Shown here piece after piece: positions 13,087-27,036 of a stretch of DNA of 64,000 bases (the stretch's first letter is position 1; every line of letters starts with the position of its first letter). This stretch comes from Megasphaera hutchinsoni. GTDB taxonomy: Bacteria > Bacillota > Negativicutes > Veillonellales > Megasphaeraceae. Under the pieces are notes generated by a model, which did no database searches, had not been told where the DNA came from, and was given only the letters and a program-made list of their open reading frames with translations. A program made the translations under genes and the position numbers. Location: positions 1 through 64,000 of the forward strand of contig NZ_KQ960953.1 in assembly GCF_001553405.1 (NCBI RefSeq), read 5' to 3'.

Positions 13087-14289
13087 TTATTTTATTAATT
13101 TTTGCAATTCAGGAAAAACACTTAAGCTTCTGCCTAAAATACCTTTCATATAAGCAATTGCTGTGCCATAATTTGTAATGAATACACCTTGTCGAGTTGC
13201 TTTTTCCATGCGATGTTGCAATTCCCTACTATTCAGCATACACCCGCCACAATGAATAATTACATCATACTGATCTAAGCAAGACGGAAATTCATTTCCC
13301 GAAGAAGTATGGATATGTAATTTTTTTCCCGTAAACTCTGCTATCCACCGCGGTAATTTTACCGTACCAATATCATCGCATTGACGATGATGTGTACAAC
13401 CTTCCGAAATTAACACATTATCACCATTTTGAAGATGACGAATCTTTTCTACGCCACGAATAGCCGTTTCCAAAAAACCTTTATGTCTAGCCATAAGAAT
13501 GGAAAAAGAAGTCATAGGAATATCTACCGGTGTTACTTGTGCGACTAATGAAAATACTTGACTATCAGTAATCACCATATCTACTTTATATTGCAATTTT
13601 TTTAACGTGGCTTCTAACATCACATCTTGTACGACCAACACGGTACACTGTGCATCTAATAATTCTCTAATCGTTTGTTGTTGCGGTAAAATTAACCGTC
13701 CCTTAGGTGCGGCCGTATCAATGGGAACCACCAAAAGAATAAATTGTCCGACCGTTACGATATCCTTCACAATAGGATAGTCTTCTTCTTTAGGCTTCAA
13801 TTGAATAAGCCTTTGTTTTACTTCTTCTACACCTTCCCGTGTAACCGCACTTACATACACCGCCTTATCATCGCCATGCTTCTGATAAGAAATCACTTTA
13901 TCAGCTTTATTGTATACCAATAGATAAGGAATATTTTTTTTATGAATAAGCTCAATCAACTTTTTTTCTAAATCCGTCATGCCGAGCGTAGCATCTACCA
14001 CCACCACCGCTATATCCGTTTGATGAAGTACCGCTTCGGTTCGCTCTATTCGTTTTTTTCCCAATACACCAACATCGTCAAACCCCGGTGTATCAATTAA
14101 CATTACTGGACCTAACGGTAAAATTTCCATCGCTTTCTTCACTGGATCCGTCGTCGTCCCTTTTACAGCGGAAACAATAGAAACAGTTTGCCCTGTAATA
14201 GCATTGACTAAACTTGACTTTCCCGCATTTCGTCGCCCAAAAAAACCAATATGAATACGTTCTCCCGACGGCGTTTCATTCATTCCCAT
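13087..14289 (-). CDS. hydF: [FeFe]-hydrogenase H-cluster maturation GTPase HydF
   Basis: A 400-aa scaffold that in known systems assembles the 2Fe subcluster and delivers it to HydA. The GTPase domain has GRRNAGKS (18-25), DTPGFDD, and NKAD. The C-terminal cluster domain has the HydF signature C298-x-H300 ... H346-C347-x2-C350. It is full length. The start (ATG 14289, or 14283) overlaps the preceding nitrogenase-like gene by 14 nt, so the two are translationally linked. Its usual partners HydE and HydG are not in this window; instead it ends an operon of nitrogenase-like and Hyp proteins. Confidence 0.95.
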   Translation of the reverse strand: MGMNETPSGERIHIGFFGRRNAGKSSLVNAITGQTVSIVSAVKGTTTDPVKKAMEILPLGPVMLIDTPGFDDVGVLGKKRIERTEAVLHQTDIAVVVVDATLGMTDLEKKLIELIHKKNIPYLLVYNKADKVISYQKHGDDKAVYVSAVTREGVEEVKQRLIQLKPKEEDYPIVKDIVTVGQFILLVVPIDTAAPKGRLILPQQQTIRELLDAQCTVLVVQDVMLEATLKKLQYKVDMVITDSQVFSLVAQVTPVDIPMTSFSILMARHKGFLETAIRGVEKIRHLQNGDNVLISEGCTHHRQCDDIGTVKLPRWIAEFTGKKLHIHTSSGNEFPSCLDQYDVIIHCGGCMLNSRELQHRMEKATRQGVFITNYGTAIAYMKGILGRSLSVFPELQKLIK

Positions 14290-15496
14290 GTCTATTCACA
14301 CTTTCTATATAAGTCGCAAAAAAATCATTAAACGCTTTCATTAAATTAGGTATGTCATCTTGATACATACGACCTGAAAAAGCCTCATGACCTAAGGGTA
14401 CAAACGTAGCAGATGACGGTATAATCGCTTTATATAATGGGTCTGCAATAATCATTTTATACGACTGTAATCGTTCCATCAATTCCCCTTCTGAAGTAAT
14501 CTGCCAATCCGTTTCAAGAAGCGTTCCTTTTGCTGGTGTAACGGGACAAAATACATCCATATGTTGACCCGTGCATTGCTCCCAAGCAGCAGCAATAGAT
14601 GTAGCATATACACTTTCACCAAGAATTACATGCTCACCCTTTTTTTTTGCTCTTATCTCTACTAATGGATATTGTACACGCTTCGTTTCTATTGCCTTAT
14701 AAATCGCTTTTTCTAACACCGACTGTATCGGATATAAAGGAATGCCTACAACATACGGTTGGGCAAAACGTTGCTGCAATATCTTTGCAGCCCTTTCCCC
14801 TCCATATGAAACAACTAAATTTACATCAGCCATGGCAGAACCTATAATTTCTTCATAAACACTTCCCATGGACCAAATAGATGTCACGACTAATCCCATC
14901 CTCGTTAAACAGCGTCGAAGTGCCTTTTCACTACCATTAAGGGCAAAATCAAGCGGTGTCATACCAATTATATTAATCTTGTTACCTTGTCCTGTGCTAG
15001 CAAAAGAAGGCTGCCACGAACAACAAGTAGATGGCGTTTTGGGTGCCGTAACTAATCGTTCCGCAATCATCGCATATGCCCATGAGATACCTTTTTCATA
15101 CGTATTCATGCTATTCGTTGTTGCCCAAAATACTGGTACCTGTGCTTTTTCTTCAATAAGCTTTGCCATTCCCTTAAAATCCGTTCCCATCATTAACGGT
15201 ACAGGCGTACATAACAACGTAATAAATCGTGGTTTATATGTATCCGCCGCTTGTAAAACATCTTGAATCATTTTCTCTTCATTGCCTAAAACCGCATCTT
15301 TTTCAGTCAGTCCCGTAATAAAAATTAAACTATCTGAATGATACCAACGTGGTTCATCATGTGTTGTATACGTAGAATTACACCCAGAAGGATCATGAAT
15401 AACCGTCATTCCACCCAATTCAAACAACGCCGAACAGACCCCAAACGTATCTGCCGAATAAGTCGAAACACGACTTACGACTTCTTTCATTGACAT
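14276..15496 (-). CDS. Nitrogenase component 1-like protein, module 2, second subunit
   Basis: A 406-aa member of the nitrogenase component-1 oxidoreductase superfamily (NifD/NifK/NifE/NifN, Bch and Cfb relatives). From the start at 15496 it has a Cys in HDPSGC (C39) where NifD/K have a P-cluster ligand, then DEPRW (47-51), then LLCTPVPLMMGTD (C96). It is paralogous to the 22224-23255 protein, which shares DEPRW and TPVP-x3-GTD. It lacks clear FeMo-cofactor ligands. The ATG at 15496 is favoured by GGGGGTG; the ATG at 15490 forms an ATGA overlap with the previous stop. Substrate unknown; context points to metallocofactor assembly. Confidence 0.75.
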   Translation of the reverse strand: MSMKEVVSRVSTYSADTFGVCSALFELGGMTVIHDPSGCNSTYTTHDEPRWYHSDSLIFITGLTEKDAVLGNEEKMIQDVLQAADTYKPRFITLLCTPVPLMMGTDFKGMAKLIEEKAQVPVFWATTNSMNTYEKGISWAYAMIAERLVTAPKTPSTCCSWQPSFASTGQGNKINIIGMTPLDFALNGSEKALRRCLTRMGLVVTSIWSMGSVYEEIIGSAMADVNLVVSYGGERAAKILQQRFAQPYVVGIPLYPIQSVLEKAIYKAIETKRVQYPLVEIRAKKKGEHVILGESVYATSIAAAWEQCTGQHMDVFCPVTPAKGTLLETDWQITSEGELMERLQSYKMIIADPLYKAIIPSSATFVPLGHEAFSGRMYQDDIPNLMKAFNDFFATYIESVNRHGNE

Positions 15497-16824
15497 AATG
15501 TACACCCCCACCCTTTATGTTGAATAACCTCTTCCGCTCGCTGTTCCTGACGAACTGCTTCAGATAATTTTTTCGCTAATTCAATAATACCTGCAAAATC
15601 TCGTAAGCCGCCACCTTCTACAATGTTCACAAAATGACTAGTTCCTGTATAATAAGCCGCCTTTTGCCCAATAGCTATATATTCCGATTGACCTTTTTCC
15701 ACCTGCCCTTTCATATTCACATGCCGAACTGAGTAAATCATGACATCTGGATAATGCATCTGTAAAAACGAAACATCGGCCGCTTCATCAGCACTGGCTA
15801 CATCACAATATATACGGTCTACCAAAAAACCATGTTTTAACAACAACCTAGCTAAAGAAAATGGTCTACTTACAGCCGTAAAATCAATGGCAATAGGTCT
15901 ATCTTGCACCACTTGTAATGCCCCTAACAAGGCTGCATCACATTGTTTTTTTTCTTGCTCATACGCAGGACATGGAATGTGAAGTTGCATTGCTACTTGT
16001 TGTAAATGCTGTTCTATTTCCTCATAATTCCACGAATTAGAAATATATAGTTGTGCTTGTCCTAATCGTTGTTCTAAGGCATCCAACGCTACATGAGCTA
16101 ATGGTTCTTGCCCAATATTTAATATACTAGACCCCATTTTTTGATATTCATCATACGTTTTACATGTCGGCAATTGATACACATGATATCCATTTTGTTG
16201 TAACAACTCATATAATTGACAAGTGTTCAGAATAGGTAAATTGCTACCAATTATATTAATCGCCAAGGGATCTTTTTGTTGTGGTTCAATTAAACTATAA
16301 ATTTGCCTTCGTGTACGCATTTCCGCTGTTAATTTTGAATTACGCCGAATGGGATCCATCCAACAAAGAACAAATTTTGTTTCTTTATATAAGGTTGTTA
16401 GTTGTTTACATATTCCTCGTAAATCGCATCCCATAAAATGATGCACACACGAAGGATATAAAAAACAAGCGGTCGGCATACTTGGTAAGCGTGCTAAGAT
16501 TTCTCCAATACCACGAATAATAACATCTTCCATCGTACCATCGAATAATTGTTTTTCTTCTATAACAATAGAAGAAAAACGTGATAAAGCCCCCATTTCT
16601 GCAGCTGTCAATACAACCCCACGCAAACATCCTAATGCACAAATATAAATTTGATGTGATCCAGGCACTAACATATTCGTATGCACAATATTCCATGTAC
16701 CTCTTGCGGGCGGTGAATATTGCAACCCATCATAAAAAAAAGTAGGAAAAGATGCGTCTTTTATAGGAAGAACAAAGCAATTTTTTTGCTTTTTTTCTGT
16801 TTCTTGAACATGTACTAACATCAT
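15487..16824 (-). CDS. Nitrogenase component 1-like protein, module 2, first subunit
   Basis: A 445-aa component-1-like protein. The N-terminal cysteines C62 and C66 (YICALGCLRG), then C120, C126, C133 and C139 (CFLYPSCVHHFMGCDLRGIC), sit where NifD/E-type proteins bind their Fe-S cluster. It ends in a distinctive GWGCTLCQ tail with a C-x2-C pair (441, 444) that the module-1 homologue lacks. The start ATG (16824) lies one base after the NifH-like stop with a GAGGTG site. It probably pairs with the 14276-15496 protein as a heteromeric reductase fed by the adjacent NifH-like protein. Function not recognised. Confidence 0.75.
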   Translation of the reverse strand: MMLVHVQETEKKQKNCFVLPIKDASFPTFFYDGLQYSPPARGTWNIVHTNMLVPGSHQIYICALGCLRGVVLTAAEMGALSRFSSIVIEEKQLFDGTMEDVIIRGIGEILARLPSMPTACFLYPSCVHHFMGCDLRGICKQLTTLYKETKFVLCWMDPIRRNSKLTAEMRTRRQIYSLIEPQQKDPLAINIIGSNLPILNTCQLYELLQQNGYHVYQLPTCKTYDEYQKMGSSILNIGQEPLAHVALDALEQRLGQAQLYISNSWNYEEIEQHLQQVAMQLHIPCPAYEQEKKQCDAALLGALQVVQDRPIAIDFTAVSRPFSLARLLLKHGFLVDRIYCDVASADEAADVSFLQMHYPDVMIYSVRHVNMKGQVEKGQSEYIAIGQKAAYYTGTSHFVNIVEGGGLRDFAGIIELAKKLSEAVRQEQRAEEVIQHKGWGCTLCQ

Positions 16825-16825
16825 C

Positions 16826-17581
16826 TCACCTCAACGCATCTTTATATATTGCCTGAGCTAACACACGATATTCTTGTGCCATCTTACTTTCAGGAAATGC
16901 TTCAACAACTGTTTTTTTTAATTCTTCGGCTTTCGTTACGGTTTCACTGCGATCTAATATACCCAAAATAGGTGCTTGTATTTCCTGTGCTAATTCATTA
17001 ACCTTTCTTTCTTCGTGATGTACATTGCGTTTATTTAAAATAAGGCCACCTAATCGAGCATACCCACGATCACGAAAACTATGTATGGCCATAGCAATAT
17101 TAGCGGCTGCATAGATAGCCATATTTTCCCCAGACGTAACAATATAAACTGTATCAGCATAACCATTACGCATAGGCATAGAAAATCCACCACATACAAC
17201 ATCACCTAATACATCATAAAAAACTACATCTGGTTGATAAACATCATACGCACCTTGTTCTTCTAACATCTCTAATGCGGCAATAATCCCTCTACCTGCA
17301 CAGCCTGTTCCAGGTATAGGTCCCCCCGCTTCTACACAAACAATATCTTTATACCCTAAAGTAACCATTTTTTCTAATGGTACATCATCTTCATATTCAC
17401 GAATTAAGTCAAGTACTGTTGATATTTTTCCCTTTCCATGTAACGTAGATGTCGAATCAGCTTTTGGATCACAACCAATTTGCATAACTTTTAATCCCAT
17501 ATCGGCTAACGTTGCGGACATATTACAAACCGTTGTCGATTTGCCAATCCCACCTTTACCATAAATGGCTATTTTTCTCAT
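16826..17581 (-). CDS. NifH-like ATP-dependent reductase, module 2
   Basis: A 251-aa homodimeric Fe-protein homologue that would hydrolyse ATP and pass electrons to its component-1 partner. The P-loop GKGGIGKST is at 8-16, switch I DPKADST at 38-44, and both bridging [4Fe-4S] ligands are present: C94 (GTGCAGRGI) and C130 ([10 protein letters not shown]). All residues needed for an active Fe protein appear intact. The start at 17581 lies 30 nt after hypE. It is similar to, but distinct from, the module-1 NifH-like protein at 24560-25327. The dedicated role is unknown; true NifH is unlikely because no nifDK, E, N or B is here. Confidence 0.88.
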
Positions 17582-17611
17582 ATAATATACTCCATATCTA
17601 TACCCCAGCCC

Positions 17612-18616
17612 TTAACATATGCGAGGTAATAATTCCCCCCGCGGTGGAGGTAACATCGTTTTCGTACCAATTTCTGTTTCCATCACAACATGGCCTACCA
17701 ATTCATCTGTTACGCGTCCAATAATAGCCGTTTCTTCACCATGTGGCGAATGACGTAACGTATCTAGAACCTTCATTGCTTGTTCTTCTGGAACAATAAT
17801 CACCATACGCCCTTCACAAGCCAAATATAACGGCTCTAAACCTAATAAACCACAAACACCACGAACAGAAGGATGAACAGGAATTGCTGTACTTTTCAAA
17901 CAAATACCTACTTGGCTTTGTGCAGCAATTTCATATAATACTGTACCCACACCACCGCGAGTGGCATCTCGAATGACGTGAATATCCCTTGTTGCTTTTA
18001 GCATATTGTCTACTAACGACCATAATGGTGCACAATCACTAGTAATTTCTGCATCAATACCAAATTTATTTCGTGCTAACAATATCGTACATCCATGGCG
18101 ACCGATATCACCAGTAACCATAATCACATCACCTGGTTTTGCTTTTGTCCCCGAAAGGGATAATCCTGGTGTCACTTTACCTATTCCCGTCGTCGTAATA
18201 AATAATTTATCAACCTGTCCCTTACCCGCAACTTTCGTATCACCTGCAACAATCAAAACCCCTACTTCTTTTGCTGTATCTTCCATAGAGGTAACATACC
18301 GCTTTAAATCCTCAACAGGCAATCCTTCCTCAATAACCATAGCACAAGATAAATACATTGGTTTAGCTCCCATACAAGCTAAGTCATTGACCGTACCACA
18401 AATACTTAATTTTCCTATATTTCCACCAGCAAAATCTGGGGGGGAAACAATAAAACCATCGGTCGAAAAAGCTAACTTTTCCCCTGGAATAGGTAGTATA
18501 GCTGCATCATCTCCTGTAAATAAGGGATTATAAAAATGTGCCTTAAAAACGCTTTCAATTAACTCACTTGTATGCTTTCCACCTGCTCCATGTGCCAAGG
18601 TAATAAATTTTTCCAT
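17612..18616 (-). CDS. hypE: Hydrogenase maturation protein HypE
   Basis: A 334-aa PurM-like ATPase that dehydrates the carbamoyl group placed on its C-terminal cysteine by HypF, giving the thiocyanate that becomes the CN ligand. Visible are HGAGGKHTSELI at the start, the FTGDDAAILPIPG ATP-binding region, GGNIGKLSICGTVNDLACMGA, and an intact C-terminal PRIC whose cysteine is the carbamoylation site. The ATG at 18616 follows GGAGG; the longer reading starts inside hypD. It is 2 nt from hypD. Confidence 0.95.
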   Translation of the reverse strand: MEKFITLAHGAGGKHTSELIESVFKAHFYNPLFTGDDAAILPIPGEKLAFSTDGFIVSPPDFAGGNIGKLSICGTVNDLACMGAKPMYLSCAMVIEEGLPVEDLKRYVTSMEDTAKEVGVLIVAGDTKVAGKGQVDKLFITTTGIGKVTPGLSLSGTKAKPGDVIMVTGDIGRHGCTILLARNKFGIDAEITSDCAPLWSLVDNMLKATRDIHVIRDATRGGVGTVLYEIAAQSQVGICLKSTAIPVHPSVRGVCGLLGLEPLYLACEGRMVIIVPEEQAMKVLDTLRHSPHGEETAIIGRVTDELVGHVVMETEIGTKTMLPPPRGELLPRIC

Positions 18617-18618
18617 AA

Positions 18619-19668
18619 TTATATTCCTCCATATTGATAATATGCTGAACATGCACCTTCTTGCGAAACCATACATGCACCAATCGGATGATCCGGTGTA
18701 CACCCTTTACCAAAAACACTACATTGCGGTGGTCTACATTTTCCCTGCAATACGTCACCACAGCGACACAACGGATTAACTTTTCCTTTTAACGTAGGAA
18801 TTTCATATTTTTTACGAGCATCATATAAAGCAAATACGGGGCGTAACATCAAACCCGAAAGGGGAATAACCCCTAATCCACGCCATTCTGAATCACATGG
18901 CTCCATCACTTCAGCCATTAATTTCTTACCTTCAATACTTCCTTCACGTGTAACCACACGCGGATAACAATTAACAAAAAATGGAGTCCCCTTGGGATAC
19001 TTTGCTAAAATAACGGCAAAAGCCGTCATTAACTCTTTACTCGTAAAACCAGCTACAACTCCAGATACCCCTCGTTTCACTAATGCTTCCGCATACTCCG
19101 TACCCATAATAGCATCAACATGTCCTGGATATAAAAATACATCAGCACTTCCCTGTAACGAATTATAAGCCATCGGCATAGTCTTATTTGCCGTTAATAA
19201 GGAAAAATTATTTATATGTTTTGCGAAAGCTTGTTTAACAGCTAAACAAGACGCCGGTGTAGTCGTTTCAAAGCCTACGGCTAAAAAAACAACCTCTTTA
19301 TCAGGATTTGCTAAAGCATAATCATAAGCATCAATCGGAGAATAGACAATTTGAATATCCGCCCCTTTACTCCGTGCATCGGCCAAACTCATATGCGTAC
19401 CTGGTACACGCAATAAATCGCCAAATGTACATACAACTACATTCTTCTCTAAAGCTAACCAAAGTGCTTCATCTACATATTCAATCGGAGTCACGCAAAC
19501 GGGGCACCCTGGTCCTGAAATAAGTTCAACTTGCGGTGGTAAAATTTGTCTAATTCCTAACTTAAATATTTCATGCGTATGTGTTCCACAGACCTCCATA
19601 ATACGAATAGGCGGTCCATCATAGCCCTGAATAATTTCCAAAGCCGTTCTTTTTTTTTGCCCATCCAT
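18619..19668 (-). CDS. hypD: Hydrogenase maturation protein HypD
   Basis: A 349-aa Fe-S protein that with HypC forms the scaffold where Fe receives CN and CO. Conserved motifs are present: EVCGTHTHEIF, GPGCPVCVTP, GFETTTPA, and the C-terminal [4Fe-4S] region CRCGDVLQGKCRPPQC...CTP...GACMVSQEGACSAYY. The ATG at 19668 follows GGAGG. It begins 1 nt after the hypC stop, the usual hypC-hypD coupling. Confidence 0.95.
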   Translation of the reverse strand: MDGQKKRTALEIIQGYDGPPIRIMEVCGTHTHEIFKLGIRQILPPQVELISGPGCPVCVTPIEYVDEALWLALEKNVVVCTFGDLLRVPGTHMSLADARSKGADIQIVYSPIDAYDYALANPDKEVVFLAVGFETTTPASCLAVKQAFAKHINNFSLLTANKTMPMAYNSLQGSADVFLYPGHVDAIMGTEYAEALVKRGVSGVVAGFTSKELMTAFAVILAKYPKGTPFFVNCYPRVVTREGSIEGKKLMAEVMEPCDSEWRGLGVIPLSGLMLRPVFALYDARKKYEIPTLKGKVNPLCRCGDVLQGKCRPPQCSVFGKGCTPDHPIGACMVSQEGACSAYYQYGGI

Positions 19669-19669
19669 C

Positions 19670-19876
19670 TTACAAATCCTCCAAAATATCGTCCGTTTCA
19701 TCCGTTTCATTATTCGTAATTTTAGCAATAGCCATGCCAGCATGCACCATGACATAATCGCCCGGATCTAAACTGGAAATTAATGCTGCTGAAATTTCCC
19801 GCTTTACCCCCGAAGCATCTACTAAAGCCATTCCATTTTTTATATTAATAACACGTGCTGGTAATCCTACACACAT
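19670..19876 (-). CDS. hypC: Hydrogenase maturation chaperone HypC
   Basis: A 68-aa HypC/HybG-type protein beginning MCVGLPARV; the Cys after Met is the iron-binding residue that carries Fe(CN)2CO with HypD and hands it to the target apoprotein. It has a short beta-barrel with DPGDYVMVHAGMAIAKI and an acidic tail. The ATG at 19876 follows AGGAGGG. In [NiFe] systems HypC recognises the large subunit; no such subunit is encoded here. Confidence 0.95.
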   Translation of the reverse strand: MCVGLPARVINIKNGMALVDASGVKREISAALISSLDPGDYVMVHAGMAIAKITNNETDETDDILEDL

Positions 19877-19928
19877 ACTATCCCTCCTAATTTATCGACA
19901 TACATTTTCCTAATTATAAATAAATTAT

Positions 19929-22220
19929 TTAATCATGATACATTGCATATACCGCTTGTCCTAATGCTAAGCCACCATCATTCGGTGGAACTAAACTATG
20001 TTTTAATACCAAAAATCCTTCTTCTACTAAAATTTGTTCGCACAATTTTAATAGTAATGTATTTTGAAATACCCCACCCGTAAGAACGACCGTCTGTAAC
20101 TTTGTTTCCTGTCTTGCAGCTAAACATGCACCTCCTACTAATCGGGCAATATATACATGAAATTCAAAGGCTAACTGTTCTGCCGCAACGCCTTCCCCTA
20201 TTTTTCGAATCAAATAAGTAATAAAAGAATTAACATCTAATATCCGCTGAGATTGACAAACTTTAGGTAATAACGGTTTTACAGCCTCTAACGGATGTTT
20301 TCTTTCCCATCTCATTGCGGCAAATTGTAACTTCATCGCCCCTTCTCCTTCAAACGTAGATATACGACAATATCCCAGTATCGCACTAACCGCATCAAAA
20401 ATACGTCCCATGCTAGTAGAAATAATACTATTAATTCCTTGATCTGCTAAAAACAATTGCGCATTTAACGCGTTATCATCTCCTTTCGTTAATCGCCATA
20501 AAATATCTCGTATCTCCTTACGCTTTTCTTGCCCGTATAAACTATCTAATATGCTAACAGCTATCCGCCATCCTTCCTTAGAGGCGATATCTCCCCCCCT
20601 ATGCCAAAAAGGAGATATAAAAGCAAATCGTGAAAACCGATGTACATCACAAAGTAAAATTTCACCACCCCAAATAGTTCCATCTCCCCCATAGCCAGTA
20701 CCATCAAAAGAAACGCCAATGACATTATCGGTATACCCATTTTCCGCCATACAAGAAAGAACATGGGCATAATGATGTTGTACCGATATCACCGGAATAC
20801 CTAACGTTTCTGCTACGGCTCGCGAATTATAGTTAGGATGTAAATCACAAGCAACTACTTGAGGCTTCGCTTCTAAAAGAGTCGTTAATCTCTGAACAGA
20901 TTCTTTTAAAACGGTCATCGTTCTAGTATCGCTCATATCCCCTATATATGGAGATAAGTAATATAAATTATATTTTCCTATACAAAAACAATTTTTTAAC
21001 TCGCCCCCAATCGCGAGCACTTCTTTATTTTTGCGTTTTCCCAGAAAAAAAGGCAATGGTGCATATCCCCGCGATCGACGGATCATATAAGGCTTATCAT
21101 CATACCAATCCATTACCGAATCGTCAGCCCTCAACCTAATATGTCGATCATGAGATAAAACTAATTCACACAATCCTTGCACTTCCGTACGAATATCCTC
21201 ATCCGTTCTACAAATAGGTGCCCCTGATTGATTGGCACTTGTCATAACCAATATATCAGGCATAGTTAACCCATCATCATATGTAAACAACAACAAATGT
21301 AACGGCGTATAAGGAAGCATTACTCCCACCTTGGGATTATCGGGAGCGATAGATGGGGCTATTTTTGAATTTTCTTTCTTTTCTAATAATATAATTGGCT
21401 TTTGATGTCCATCTAAGGTTTCTTGAACCGATAATGGAACGACACATTCTCTCATAGCAACAGCAAGGTTTTTCATCATAACCGCAAAAGGTTTAACTGG
21501 TCTATGTTTCACTTTACGTAACAAAGACACCGCCTGTTCATTCGTACCATCACAGCAAAAATGAAATCCTCCCAATCCTTTTACCGCGATAATTTTTCCA
21601 GCACAAATAGCTCGTCGTGCTGCTCGTATAGCGTCTTTATTTTTTTCTTGCCTATCCAATATATATACTTGAGGGCCACAATTAGGACAGCAAACTGGTT
21701 GGGCATCATAACGACGACTATGAGAATCAACATATTCAGCTGCACACTCATGACACATAGGAAAATCATTCATACTCGTTCGTTCTCTATCATATGGCAT
21801 GCCCTCTAAAATCGTTAAACGTGGCCCGCAAGCCGTACAATTAATAAAAGGATGTAAATATCTTCTATTCGATGGATCAAATAATTCTTTTTGACAAGTA
21901 AGACAGGTAGCAATATCAGGAGAAACAAAAATATCTCCTTCTTTCCGTTCACTTTCAACAATTGAAAAACAAGTATATGCAGAAACATCTATCGTTTCTA
22001 CTTTAACCTGCAAAATAGACGAACGAGCTGGTGCTTTGTCTTTAAGGTCTTTTAAAAATTGTTTTTTAGCAAATTCATTTCCTTGAATTAATATTTCTAC
22101 GTAAGACCCTTTGTTACAAACTGTCCCTTTTAACTGATATTTCATCGCGATGCGACTAACAAAAGGACGAAAACCAACGCCTTGAACAATTCCAACCACA
22201 CATACTCGCTCCGTTTTCAT
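19929..22220 (-). CDS. hypF: Carbamoyltransferase HypF
   Basis: A 763-aa enzyme converting carbamoyl phosphate and ATP into carbamoyl-adenylate and transferring the carbamoyl group to HypE, the source of CN ligands. Domains in order: acylphosphatase (1-90, GIVQGVGFRPFV), two zinc-finger modules (about 105-185, CLTCQ...CTACGP and CHEC...CCPNCGP), YrdC-like (about 195-385), and Kae1-like carbamoyltransferase (about 400-763, VQHHYAHVLSCM, GVSFDGTGYGGDGTIWGGE). It is complete. The start (ATG 22220) is 3 nt after the upstream nitrogenase-like gene, showing one transcript. Confidence 0.96.
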   Translation of the reverse strand: MKTERVCVVGIVQGVGFRPFVSRIAMKYQLKGTVCNKGSYVEILIQGNEFAKKQFLKDLKDKAPARSSILQVKVETIDVSAYTCFSIVESERKEGDIFVSPDIATCLTCQKELFDPSNRRYLHPFINCTACGPRLTILEGMPYDRERTSMNDFPMCHECAAEYVDSHSRRYDAQPVCCPNCGPQVYILDRQEKNKDAIRAARRAICAGKIIAVKGLGGFHFCCDGTNEQAVSLLRKVKHRPVKPFAVMMKNLAVAMRECVVPLSVQETLDGHQKPIILLEKKENSKIAPSIAPDNPKVGVMLPYTPLHLLLFTYDDGLTMPDILVMTSANQSGAPICRTDEDIRTEVQGLCELVLSHDRHIRLRADDSVMDWYDDKPYMIRRSRGYAPLPFFLGKRKNKEVLAIGGELKNCFCIGKYNLYYLSPYIGDMSDTRTMTVLKESVQRLTTLLEAKPQVVACDLHPNYNSRAVAETLGIPVISVQHHYAHVLSCMAENGYTDNVIGVSFDGTGYGGDGTIWGGEILLCDVHRFSRFAFISPFWHRGGDIASKEGWRIAVSILDSLYGQEKRKEIRDILWRLTKGDDNALNAQLFLADQGINSIISTSMGRIFDAVSAILGYCRISTFEGEGAMKLQFAAMRWERKHPLEAVKPLLPKVCQSQRILDVNSFITYLIRKIGEGVAAEQLAFEFHVYIARLVGGACLAARQETKLQTVVLTGGVFQNTLLLKLCEQILVEEGFLVLKHSLVPPNDGGLALGQAVYAMYHD

Positions 22221-22223
22221 CCT

Positions 22224-23255
22224 TTACTCCCTTCCCGAAACAGCAAAATGAGGATAATCAATATAAACACCTGTAAAATGCGGGATAGCTCGTTTAAAAT
22301 AAATATCACCAATAATTACATCAAATGAGCCCTCCTGTACTAACTGACAAAAATCATCTTCTTCTTTAAGATAAATATGAGGAAATGACAACAACTCTTT
22401 TTTTGCCATAAACCAAGAAGCCGTTATAACCTGCTTTGCACCTAAGGCACGTACTTTTTTTGCCATATCCAAAGCCGCTACTTGCTGATGTACAATCAAA
22501 ACAGATTTATCTTGCAATACTATATCATTAGTAAGAAGATTATCATTACCAAAATACCGACATTCATAAGGAATCCCAAATATCTTATACACATACTGTG
22601 CTGCTTCTAAGCCGGCTGGAGATATAACTATATTCTTCGTTACCGCACCGGCCTGCCGATAATCATCTAAACAATCAAATAATACTACTTTATCAACCGC
22701 ATCTTTTTGTAATATATCTACTATTTTATTTCCATCCATAGGATGCATAAATTCTAACGGAATCGCTCCCCATACACCCACCATGTTTTTTTTTGGTACA
22801 GCTAAAGGTTCAATGAATTGTGAACAAACGGCTTTATATGCTGCTTCCATTCCTTTATCATATAACCCCATACCCGTTGTATCGACTGTAATAACGGGAA
22901 TAGATACCTTCTTCGCAATCATTCTTTTTAAAGCTTGATAATCCGTACCAATAACCGATGGTACAGGTGTCCCAACAATAGCAATAAAAGCAGCTTGCAC
23001 ATGATCTACGGCTTGACATATTTTCGCTACCAATCGATCATCTCGTCCCATAATAGCATCCATATCACGAAGACCCGCACTAAATACCGCACTTTTGCGA
23101 CCACTAAACCATCTCGGCTCATCAAAACCACAAATATTGCCAGCACATCCTCCTGCATCACAAATCACAACAATGCCTTGTAATCCATAAAAAACAGAGG
23201 CCGCCCCCGATTGGTCAGGAGCAAAGGGCGAGATATATTTCCATAATCCTTTCAT
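22224..23255 (-). CDS. Nitrogenase component 1-like protein, module 1, second subunit
   Basis: A 343-aa component-1-like protein, shorter than NifD/K (about 450-500 aa). Cysteines C32, C37 and C42 (ICDAGGCAGNICGFDEPRW) lie in the N-terminal cluster-binding region, followed by GTPVPSVIGTD (95-105). DEPRW and TPVP-x3-GTD are shared with the module-2 protein at 14276-15496. In this protein Gly replaces the Cys that precedes TPVP in its paralogue. The ATG at 23255 overlaps the upstream stop as ATGA, indicating translational coupling and likely a stoichiometric pair. Function unknown. Confidence 0.75.
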   Translation of the reverse strand: MKGLWKYISPFAPDQSGAASVFYGLQGIVVICDAGGCAGNICGFDEPRWFSGRKSAVFSAGLRDMDAIMGRDDRLVAKICQAVDHVQAAFIAIVGTPVPSVIGTDYQALKRMIAKKVSIPVITVDTTGMGLYDKGMEAAYKAVCSQFIEPLAVPKKNMVGVWGAIPLEFMHPMDGNKIVDILQKDAVDKVVLFDCLDDYRQAGAVTKNIVISPAGLEAAQYVYKIFGIPYECRYFGNDNLLTNDIVLQDKSVLIVHQQVAALDMAKKVRALGAKQVITASWFMAKKELLSFPHIYLKEEDDFCQLVQEGSFDVIIGDIYFKRAIPHFTGVYIDYPHFAVSGRE

Positions 23256-24556
23256 GCTATATTCCTTTCTCTAAGGGAAAATTGTATTCTTTTTAATAAA
23301 GAAATCACCCCAGCATACCCAAAGGGCTGGATATCTTCGTCCCAATGTACATGCACTGCATGTGGATGATAATAGGAACAATCTTTACCTATCGTTACAT
23401 CAATATGTTCATGTCCATCCTCATAATAAATCATGCTAGGTGATAAATTAGAATACACTTTTGTAAGCGGTGTAAGCTCTGTTAAATGCCGGATATATAC
23501 ATAATCATTTTCTGAAATGTTAGCAAAAATTTCTTTTACCGCAAAACCATATTTAGTAAGTGCTAATGCCATTTCATAAGCATTGCCATTTTGCATTTCC
23601 CCAATCGAAACACGAATACCAGCACAACGTTGTTTTATTTCAGAAACAATTTCCTTTGCTTGTTCCCACCAAGCGGTGTCTTCGACAGAAACTCCCAATG
23701 TACGTCCCAAAGCCTGATACTGTGTATGTATTTTAGCGACTTGATACAAACGAGTTAATTCAATACTAGGAATGCCTAATCGTTCCTGCATATCCTGTGC
23801 CGCTAACCGAGCTTCGGGATGTAAAATAATATTAAAATTAGCTTGAGATAAGGTTTTATATGAATCATAATCCTTGCAACGAGCTAACTCATGAATAGTA
23901 TGAATTCCCATATTTTTTAATAATTCATATAGTTCACAATCGTCCTGTAAAGGTGAAAAATAACCAATTAAATTTACAGTTCTTCTATTTCTCGTTTGTT
24001 TTTCCAACAATGAATATACGGCACGCCGTACATCTACCATAGGCGGTTTACGACCTTCTCGCGTCAATGCATACATATAGCAAGGAACAACAGGCACCCC
24101 TATTTTTTGCGTCGCTTTTTTACATACCTGTTCCATGTCGGTTCCCAATAATGCATCGACACAGGTCATACAAACCATAACAACAGATGGACAGACCGTT
24201 TGAGTTGCTAATATTTCTTCTATCGCACTTGCTATCTTCCGCAAATGTCTACCTGTTACAATATCTGTTTCATCCATTTGATAATAAAAGAACCGCTCAC
24301 TATATCCACCCATTTCACTCAATATTGTCGTATTACGGCCACAGCATCCTGGCCCAATCAACAACATAATCGAACCCGGTATAGCTAATCCTGCACGTTT
24401 CACGCCAAAGCCTTGTGCTCCTGGCGAATTAAAAGCCAATGCAGCTGGCGAATTATATATTAAATGTGATGAAGAAATAAGTTCCTTTGGAATATTCGCA
24501 CTCCCTAACTGTGCTAATTCTTCAATGGTTATACTATATGGTATTAATGGTTTCAT
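23252..24556 (-). CDS. Nitrogenase component 1-like protein, module 1, first subunit
   Basis: A 434-aa component-1-like protein. LLIGPGCCGRNTT (C71, C72) resembles the first cluster-ligand motif of NifD/NifE, and VCMTCVDALLGTDMEQVC (C129, C132, C145) matches the second ligand region. No convincing FeMo-co Cys/His pair is seen in the C-terminal half, though HPHAVHVHWDED is His-rich near the end. The start is 3 nt after the NifH-like stop. With the 22224-23255 protein it probably makes a heteromeric partner of the module-1 NifH-like protein. Confidence 0.75.
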   Translation of the reverse strand: MKPLIPYSITIEELAQLGSANIPKELISSSHLIYNSPAALAFNSPGAQGFGVKRAGLAIPGSIMLLIGPGCCGRNTTILSEMGGYSERFFYYQMDETDIVTGRHLRKIASAIEEILATQTVCPSVVMVCMTCVDALLGTDMEQVCKKATQKIGVPVVPCYMYALTREGRKPPMVDVRRAVYSLLEKQTRNRRTVNLIGYFSPLQDDCELYELLKNMGIHTIHELARCKDYDSYKTLSQANFNIILHPEARLAAQDMQERLGIPSIELTRLYQVAKIHTQYQALGRTLGVSVEDTAWWEQAKEIVSEIKQRCAGIRVSIGEMQNGNAYEMALALTKYGFAVKEIFANISENDYVYIRHLTELTPLTKVYSNLSPSMIYYEDGHEHIDVTIGKDCSYYHPHAVHVHWDEDIQPFGYAGVISLLKRIQFSLRERNIA

Positions 24557-24559
24557 ATC

Positions 24560-25327
24560 TTACCCTTTCCTTACACTATCATTACTACTTAATAACGTTG
24601 CTAAGGCAATAAACTTTTGACTGATCATAAGATTGACATCTACTTCAATCACAGTTTTTCCCTGTTCTTCAGCATGATTGATATCATCACTACGCGGAAT
24701 ATCTGCAACAATCGGAACCTCAATTTGTGAAGCAAAAGCGTTCACCTTTTTTTCTTCATCTGGCACGTTACGCCGATTTAAAACAATTCCTCGTACGCTC
24801 GCATAACTACGATCAGCAAAATTTTTAACTGCCATCGCAATATTATTTGCAGCATATAAAGCCATTTTCTCTCCCGATGTAACAATCAATACATCATCAG
24901 CATATCCTTCACGAATCGGTGCTGCAAAACCGCCACAAACTACGTCCCCTAATACGTCATATAAAACAATATCTGGCTTATATATTTCAAATAAACCTAA
25001 ATCTTCTAATAAATCAAACGTAGCAATAATACCTCTTCCAGCACAACCTAAACCAGGTGTAGGTCCCCCTGTTTCAATACATAAAATATTTGCATATCCT
25101 TTACAAGAGATATCTTCTAATGATTGTGGATCTTCATCGTGAACACGCATATATTGCATTACCGATTCCAATGGCTTTCCACCCAATAAATTAAAGGTAG
25201 AATCAGCTTTAGGATCACAACCAATTTGAATTACTTTCATACCTTTATACGCAAAAGCCGCCGACAAATTACTCGTAATCGTTGATTTGCCTATGCCGCC
25301 TTTACCATACACAGCAATTTTTAACAT
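24560..25327 (-). CDS. NifH-like ATP-dependent reductase, module 1
   Basis: A 255-aa Fe-protein homologue with P-loop GKGGIGKST (8-16), DPKADST (38-44), and the two cluster ligands C95 (GLGCAGRGI) and C131 ([10 protein letters not shown]). It would be an ATP-driven electron donor to the two downstream component-1-like proteins. The ATG at 25327 follows GGGAGG, 11 nt after the TM1266-type gene. The arrangement H-component1-component1 repeats at 17581-14276, so the operon has two complete modules. Confidence 0.88.
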
Positions 25328-25338
25328 ACATCCTCCCT

Positions 25339-25587
25339 TTAAGGCATAGGCGGATAAATTGTTTTCGTACTTACATCTGGAAGCATACCTAATTTTCCCG
25401 ATAATGCACTAATGATATTCTGCGGTGCATCAACAATAATACTAATCACATGCACACCTCTCTCATGATAAGGAATGCCCATCCGTCCAACAATATATTC
25501 TCCATACTCATGTAAAATTTCATTTAATTTTTCCGTAATATTACGCTTACCTACAATAATACCAATTAATGCTAGTCTAGTATCCAT
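25339..25587 (-). CDS. TM1266-type iron-only hydrogenase system putative regulator
   Basis: An 82-aa ACT/ferredoxin-like fold protein starting [16 protein letters not shown] and ending [17 protein letters not shown], matching the small TM1266 family that is found beside [FeFe]-hydrogenase maturation genes and resembles the NikR C-terminal ligand-binding domain. The ATG at 25587 follows GGAGG; the longer reading runs into the leader terminator. It is the first gene of the 12-gene operon and strengthens the link to [FeFe]-hydrogenase biogenesis. Its molecular role is not established. Confidence 0.85.
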
Positions 25588-25600
25588 CAAATATACCTCC

Positions 25601-25656
25601 AAAAAAAAGACTCCATGCGAAAGCACAGAGCCTAGTATATGTTTAAGTGCTTTCGC
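25601..25656 (-). promoter_or_regulatory. Terminator/antiterminator pair in the operon leader (candidate riboswitch)
   Basis: On the minus strand a 10-bp stem (5' arm 25632-25623, loop TTTC, 3' arm 25618-25609, three G-U pairs) is followed by eight T (25608-25601), an intrinsic terminator directly before the ribosome site. A perfect 10-bp inverted repeat GCGAAAGCAC/GTGCTTTCGC (25617-25626 / 25647-25656) would pair across the terminator loop and parts of both arms, so the two folds exclude each other. About 90 nt of leader lies upstream as possible aptamer. I do not recognise a known riboswitch class. Confidence 0.65.
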
Positions 25657-25750
25657 CTTGCTTGTGCAGACAACTCTTTACAAGTAAGAACAAATGCGTA
25701 AATATAAAGCTTTTCGTCAGAAACTTCTTATGAATCGCTTATTTGTATAT

Positions 25751-25779
25751 AGTATAACAGATTTAATCAATAATGACTA
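25751..25779 (-). promoter_or_regulatory. Candidate promoter of the nitrogenase-like/hyp/hydF operon
   Basis: Minus-strand TATACT (25751-25756) with a weak TAGTCA -35 (25774-25779) at 17 nt, giving a leader of about 155 nt before the first gene. Confidence 0.45.
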
Positions 25780-25785
25780 TATTTT

Positions 25786-27036
25786 TTATCTTTTTTCTGC
25801 CAAAAATAAATGATACCTCTCCTTGAATTTTTGACTATTCATATCTCCTTCCCAACAAGCAACTACCATCGTTGCCATGCAATTGCCACTAACATTACAA
25901 ATCGTACGAATCATGTCTAACAAACGATCAATCCCTAATAAAATAGCTACTCCTTCAGTTGGTAAATTAAAAGCTACGGCCGTAGCGGCTACAACAATAA
26001 TACCTGCTCCAGGAACTCCAGCAATCCCTTTCGTGGAAAGCATTAAAGTCAACATCACCAAAATTTGTTGTTCCATCGGCATGTGAATACCATATAATTG
26101 AGCAATAAATAAAATACATGCGGAACTATATAAAGTAGATCCATCTAAGTTGAAAGAATATCCCGTAGGCATAACAAAGGTAACAATATTTTTAGGCACG
26201 CCTAATTCTTCAAGGCGTTGCATCGCTCCTGGTAATGCCGCTTCGCTACTAGCAGTTGAAAAAGCTAATAACAAAATGTCTTTCAACGCTTTTAATAAAC
26301 AAAAGAAGTTAATCCGAGTAAAAGCACTCGCCACTAAAGCAATAATACAAATAAAAATAAGCGTTGCAATTGCAACAGAAAGAATCAGCTTGCCTAAAGG
26401 AATTAACATCTCAATACCATAACTACCTACTGTATAAGCAATCATAGCAAATACACCAATCGGTGCTAAATGCATCACATAACTAGTAACTTTAAACATG
26501 GTTTCAGCAATGCAACGACAAGCATTAACGATGCTCTCTCCATCTTTACCAATATGGGCTACACCTACACCAAAGAAACACGAAAATAAAATAATTTGCA
26601 ACATATCTTGCCGAGCTGCCGCATCAATGATATTCGTAGGTATAATATGTACCACATAATCTACTAAATTAATACTATGTTGACTTGCAGTAGCAACTTT
26701 ATCAGCGTCTCCCGCTGCTGCTGTAATATGTACCCCTACACCAGGTTCAGCTACATTCATAACGATCAAGCCAATAGCCAGTGCGATAGTCGTAGCAAAT
26801 TCAAACCAAATAATTGATTTTCCTCCTAAACGACCTAATTTTTTAAAATCACCCGTTCCAGCAATCCCCATAACTAACGTACTAAAAATCAATGGTACAA
26901 CAATCATTTTAATTAATCTTAAAAAAGCATCACCAAATGGTTTTAATTTATCTCCCACATCAGGAAATAAATATCCAACAATAGCACCTAGAATAAGACC
27001 TATTAAAATTTGTGTACTTAACCCTAATTTTTTCAC
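25786..27036 (-). CDS. Dicarboxylate/amino acid:cation symporter (GltP/DctA type)
   Basis: A 416-aa DAACS transporter of the inner membrane. Motifs: STASSEAALPGAMQRLEELGV (first reentrant loop, serine-rich) and FVMPTGYSFNLDGSTLY (conserved NLDG-type motif), closer to canonical GltP/DctA than the 91-1380 paralogue. The start is GTG at 27036, behind AAGGAAG; no ATG is available near it. Likely substrates are glutamate, aspartate, succinate or fumarate; not resolvable from sequence. Its 3' end abuts the promoter of the hyp/hydF operon. Confidence 0.87.
   Translation of the reverse strand: MKKLGLSTQILIGLILGAIVGYLFPDVGDKLKPFGDAFLRLIKMIVVPLIFSTLVMGIAGTGDFKKLGRLGGKSIIWFEFATTIALAIGLIVMNVAEPGVGVHITAAAGDADKVATASQHSINLVDYVVHIIPTNIIDAAARQDMLQIILFSCFFGVGVAHIGKDGESIVNACRCIAETMFKVTSYVMHLAPIGVFAMIAYTVGSYGIEMLIPLGKLILSVAIATLIFICIIALVASAFTRINFFCLLKALKDILLLAFSTASSEAALPGAMQRLEELGVPKNIVTFVMPTGYSFNLDGSTLYSSACILFIAQLYGIHMPMEQQILVMLTLMLSTKGIAGVPGAGIIVVAATAVAFNLPTEGVAILLGIDRLLDMIRTICNVSGNCMATMVVACWEGDMNSQKFKERYHLFLAEKR

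Follow-up and report, generated by a model that had tools for sequence, protein, structure and literature searches.

A two-hairpin leader RNA, putatively a riboswitch-type attenuator, before H-cluster maturation genes in Megasphaera and other Bacillota

To our knowledge, little is known about how cells control the synthesis of the [FeFe]-hydrogenase H-cluster. In the window analysed here, a stretch of 64,000 nucleotides from Megasphaera hutchinsoni (contig NZ_KQ960953.1, positions 1 to 64,000), a minus-strand leader with a terminator (eight T) and a perfect 10-bp competing stem precedes a TM1266-nflHDK-hypFCDE-nflHDK-hydF operon, and the question is whether this leader acts as a switch and, if so, what it would respond to. 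Our preferred reading, held with some reserve, is that the leader is probably a transcription attenuator belonging to a new RNA class, which controls H-cluster assembly as an OFF switch and is putatively a riboswitch. The RNA class, its fold, the terminator, the competing pairing and the genes controlled are computational results; the switching polarity and the effector are what we infer from them. A compact RNA on maturation genes in many Bacillota would offer a direct handle on the control of H-cluster synthesis, and its ligand would reveal the metabolite that cells treat as the signal of cofactor supply.

Layout of the leader

The elements of the leader and of the operon behind it are listed in Table 1. 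The terminator stem, AGGCTCTGTGC-TTTC-GCATGGAGTCT (25633-25608, minus strand), runs into eight T (25608-25601), and upstream of it GCGAAAGCAC is perfectly complementary to GTGCTTTCGC, which spans the terminator loop together with the top of the 5' arm before it and the first two bases of the 3' arm behind it. A sequence-only reading had described just this arrangement, a terminator stem with eight T and a perfect 10-bp alternative stem overlapping its loop and both arms, in a leader of about 155 nt; as the true TM1266 start is the ATG at 25587, behind the GGAGG, the length comes to about 157 nt. Transcription is expected to start at about 25744, judging from the promoter-like site, and the interval noted in that reading, 25601-25744, ends about 2 nt inside the conserved RNA.

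Table 1. Features of the leader and the operon in the window
Feature	Position	Strand	Basis or remark
Promoter-like site	25751-25779	-	sigma-70-like; TAGTCA, 17 nt, TG-extended TATACT; 9/12 consensus matches
Conserved two-hairpin RNA (putative aptamer domain)	25650-25746	-	covariance model matches
P1 hairpin	25707-25740	-	fold and alignments; helices 1-3 85-96% paired
P2 hairpin	25654-25692	-	fold, alignments and base conservation
Antiterminator 5' strand (GCGAAAGCAC)	25647-25656	-	first 3 nt = 3' base of P2
Antiterminator 3' strand (GTGCTTTCGC)	25617-25626	-	overlaps terminator 5' arm, loop and start of 3' arm
Intrinsic terminator, 11-bp hairpin and eight T	25601-25633	-	folding and terminator scan
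Ribosome-binding site GGAGG	25596-25600	-	sequence
TM1266-family gene, first in operon	25339-25587	-	PF21699 E=1.5e-32; TIGR03959 over its cut-off
Rest of operon: nflH, nflD, nflK, hypF, hypC, hypD, hypE, second nflHDK-like set, hydF	13087-25327	-	
hypC	19670-19876	-	assigned by MCxGxP start only

Terminator-like sites are enriched in the scanned region (three versus 0.4+/-0.6 in shuffles), and the 65-nt terminator segment folds with z=-3.2. The whole 165-nt leader reaches only a weak z=-1.6; thermodynamics alone is thus no proof, and the argument was built on comparative analysis. A search of the organism's own genome with the leader DNA yielded no second copy, only short chance matches.

Fold, covariation and spread of the RNA

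Orthologues of NflH are present in 16 of 17 genomes of the Megasphaera family, and the leaders before TM1266 in NflH-bearing relatives share a clear core; the gene further upstream varies. The minimum-energy folds of leaders in the closer group mostly show the same two hairpins. P1 consists of a basal stem, a 2x2 internal loop, a 4-bp second stem, an NA/GA internal loop and a 3-bp stem (AAG...CU) with its loop. The base of P2 is formed by CGU..GCG followed by CU/AG, with CGU.CU pairing to AAGGCG, and above it lie a variable stem, a 2x2 internal loop (AA/GC or GA/GA) and a 3-bp stem (GG...CC) with its loop. Conservation is highest at AG/CU in P1 and at CGUnCU/AAGGCG in P2, the P2 3' strand AAGGCG being the best conserved stretch; the unpaired bases are only moderately conserved by the standard of a riboswitch aptamer, which counts against the preferred reading. 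AAG..CUG elements are alike in the two hairpins.

Covariation in homologous leaders, set beforehand as one test of the attenuator, proved strong. In an alignment of eight leaders made from sequence only (A2), 93% of cells are paired and 11 of 25 pairs have changed on both sides, with a covariation score of 0.311 versus 0.165+/-0.021 in shuffles and at most 0.170 when the structure was slid. With 60 sequences aligned, both sides have changed in 22/25 pairs (10 of the 11 in P1 helices 1-3), there are 290 such cells versus 86+/-13 in shuffles, and the score is 0.531, versus 0.203 shuffled and at most 0.143 in slid controls. This larger alignment was fitted to the covariance model and is biased in its favour; that bias touches neither the A2 result nor the blind genomic positions described below. 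MAFFT alone misaligned P2 in diverged members.

Covariance models were built in three rounds, R1 and R2 from Megasphaera-family sequences only, followed by R3. R1 missed or underscored those members that had diverged most, and it also produced weak spurious matches (L022 plus strand, L010 minus strand, a ribosomal-protein region in L051, L055 and L056), which is why it was iterated to R2 and R3 and gene context was required. The RNA of the window scores 97.6 bits with R1 and 84.7 bits with R3, but its sequence is in the training sets, so that independent support comes from the R2 scan of the class, from R2 in TM1266 loci and from a scan of the phylum. Across 380 genomes of the class, R2 found matches in four genomes of another family; in the three of these loci whose genes were read, the RNA lies directly before TM1266, which is followed by hydG (Propionispira arboris, G338) or an amidohydrolase gene. 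When R2 was run on 80 TM1266 loci drawn from many different Clostridia, all 24 matches at E<1 fell on the sense strand just upstream of TM1266. With R3 the same loci gave 37 matches at E<=0.1, every one in sense orientation, 65-188 nt ahead of TM1266, and none elsewhere in their 831 kb, which serves as an empirical false-positive control. About half of the sampled TM1266 loci have no match, a point that speaks against the preferred reading. The phylum scan, over 398 genomes, added ten matches. Eight of them precede TM1266 together with hydG or hydE, another stands immediately ahead of hydE-hydF (L186), and the last is at the end of a contig. By covariance search and gene context, the same RNA occurs beyond the Megasphaera family in other Negativicutes and in Clostridia, and its reading as an undescribed class before H-cluster maturation genes across many Bacillota (Firmicutes) is well supported.

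The sequence-only reading could not match the leader to a known class, and Rfam 15 gives no match at the leader either in a search of the whole window at gathering threshold or in one of the leader at E<=10; nor did the leader RNA of homologous loci match at E<=5. A description of such an RNA was not found in the literature searched. Elsewhere in the window, Rfam identifies a pan motif (RF01749, 60903-61014, plus strand; 41 bits, gathering score 36.2) and an ordinary bacterial large signal recognition particle RNA (RF01854, 34972-35175, minus strand; 91.4 bits).

Competing pairing, proposed switch and alternative readings

Most homologous leaders have a promoter-like site 4-14 nt ahead of P1 (mean score 9.25 versus 7.74 in shuffles), and transcription should therefore begin in front of the RNA. 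A strict scan places a terminator behind the RNA in 66 of 74 leaders, and several of the rest show one on visual inspection. Complementarity to the P2 3' strand lies in the 5' arm and loop of this terminator, as GCCTT to AAGGC in many leaders and as GTGCTTTCGC to GCGAAAGCAC in the group of the window. The duplex of the P2 3' strand with the terminator arm and loop has an energy of -12.4 kcal/mol for cognate partners, versus -11.0 for swapped and -9.1 for shuffled ones; none of 20,000 permutations was as good (z about -5), and in a dereplicated set cognate and swapped duplexes stand at -12.7 and -11.0. Judged by these pairing energies, a mutually exclusive antiterminator is conserved through base changes. 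Together with the covariation of homologous leaders, this supports the attenuator layout, of riboswitch or protein type, proposed from the sequence, and the attenuator itself is well supported. In the window, the computed end states are 1.4 kcal/mol apart (terminator -37.2, antiterminator -35.8), and in the nascent RNA, before the terminator 3' arm is made, the antiterminator is preferred. In one relative (G005, L013:205-600), an insertion of about 130 nt separates the conserved RNA from a different terminator, and attenuation there may be altered. As to a possible leader-peptide attenuator, a short frame behind a Shine-Dalgarno-like stretch occurs in 39/74 leaders, a pattern that also matches the conserved AAGG of P2.

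In the proposed model, the nascent leader RNA would fold into P1 and P2. As long as P2 is unstable, its 3' strand (AAGGCG and the following bases) would pair with the terminator 5' arm and loop, blocking the terminator, and the operon would be read. An effector that stabilises P1-P2 would keep this strand in P2, the terminator would form, and transcription would end before the ribosome-binding site. Because the P2 3' strand has two uses, an effector stabilising P2 should cause termination, and it is from this double use that we infer the polarity. A small molecule from the H-cluster pathway is the most likely effector, in which case the RNA would be a riboswitch; candidates are products and intermediates, for example an Fe-CO/CN-cysteine synthon or a dithiolate precursor, or else a signal reflecting the iron, sulfur or CO status. 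As far as sequence comparison can tell, the leader is likely a candidate riboswitch.

The same attenuator might instead be worked by an RNA-binding protein, with TM1266 as first candidate in an autogenous control involving a bound cofactor or metal, a reading that we consider possible but rather doubtful. TM1266 is a small protein of NikR/ACT-like type whose gene directly follows the RNA, and this holds in nearly all loci, including that of a lone TM1266 paralogue in G015; even G674, with the RNA before hydE, still encodes TM1266, behind a second RNA copy, and two alike hairpins would suit a dimeric protein. However, the RNA also stands before hydE-hydF and before an ABC transporter with no TM1266 adjoining, domain profile searches recognised no RNA-binding domain in TM1266, and the one relative of solved structure that sequence searching turned up, 2nzc, is a hypothetical protein. 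The opposite polarity, in which an effector would favour the antiterminator (an ON switch), gains from the closeness of the two free energies given above but seems unlikely, since the P2 3' strand is common to P2 and the antiterminator, and stabilising P2 should favour the terminator. That the hairpin is simply the terminator of the dicarboxylate symporter gene (gltP) lying upstream, with a complementary repeat arising by chance, is scarcely credible and is refuted by the comparative data: the symporter gene does end at 25786 on the same strand as the leader, but the upstream gene differs among relatives while the RNA stays with TM1266, a promoter-like site lies between the symporter gene and the RNA, and neither the covariation nor the co-evolution of the terminator fits this origin.

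It is also very improbable that the leader represents a known class, namely a T-box, an ANTAR dual-hairpin target or a drifted Rfam riboswitch, given the lack of an Rfam match. A T-box was rejected because the conserved T-box bulge sequence occurs in 0/74 leaders. The targets of ANTAR antiterminators (EutV, NasR, AmiR) come closest in outline, as they likewise have two small tandem hairpins before a terminator that competes with the region of the second hairpin, and are defined by two hexaloops, each with A as its first and G as its fourth base (PMC3369931); such hexaloops are found in both hairpins of 0/60 sequences, which led us to reject this class too, and P2 of the present RNA competes with the antiterminator and should promote termination. 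With OFF riboswitches of the TPP, purine and SAM-I type, the preferred attenuator shares a folded conserved leader with a promoter just upstream, the competition between antiterminator and terminator, and the control of a biosynthetic operon and a transporter. It differs from them in that its fold and conserved bases match no Rfam family and in having two separate hairpins rather than one multi-helix aptamer closed by a P1 stem. Like the orphan riboswitch candidates from comparative genomics, it combines a leader supported by covariation with coherent downstream genes and no known ligand; unlike them, it is absent from Rfam 15.

Regulon and candidate effector

The neighbours of the RNA are nearly always TM1266, hydE, hydG, hydF, the nfl/hyp cluster or an NMT1/SsuA-type ABC transporter; for a new riboswitch candidate, so narrow a range of targets is unusual. 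One genome (G007) without HydA also lacks NflH, TM1266 and the RNA. The gene set controlled and this co-absence fit the sensing of a compound of the H-cluster pathway. In two separate lineages (G004 and G674) the RNA precedes NMT1/SsuA-type ABC transporters, as expected if it senses a pathway metabolite; in G674, one copy precedes hydE, and a weaker second copy precedes TM1266, which is encoded elsewhere in that genome, together with a binding protein and a permease. That this is a new, widespread Bacillota riboswitch class, sensing a unique H-cluster metabolite or organometallic intermediate (or free CO, cyanide or iron) and feeding back on hydE/hydG/hydF, the nfl and Hyp cluster and an importer, is quite conceivable, and we put it forward tentatively.

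One regulon would join hydE/hydG/hydF, the nitrogenase-like and HypFCDE cluster and the ABC transporter, which makes both the transporter substrate and a HydG-free route testable. Several further TM1266 loci also carry the transporter, and in unrelated bacteria it is associated with the RNA or with TM1266/hydE/hydF operons (L057:6961-9426, minus strand; L196:1-1468, minus strand; L143:7310-9750), lying in L143 between hydE and hydF in a genome in which HydG was not found. Its substrate may belong to H-cluster synthesis. The notion that the transporter always replaces HydG was rejected, as HydG is present in G674, G764 and G767.

Genomes of the Megasphaera family encode the [FeFe]-hydrogenase HydA as well as HydE and HydF, but none of their proteins passes the HydG cut-off; in a sister family, HydG scores about 850 bits or more. 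The operon of the window (13087-25587, minus strand), with HydF, HypFCDE and two nitrogenase-like HDK sets, may provide a way of making the Fe-CO/CN part of the H-cluster without HydG, which the nitrogenase-like and Hyp genes would then replace in Megasphaera. At a TM1266 locus of an Intestinimonas sp. MAG (L109), hydE is followed by a NifH-like gene and HydG was not found in the assembly; the nitrogenase-like association is therefore not limited to Negativicutes. In G015 (L050:173-600), the lone TM1266 paralogue behind the RNA is more diverged; no maturation gene follows it, and the next gene is phosphatase-like.
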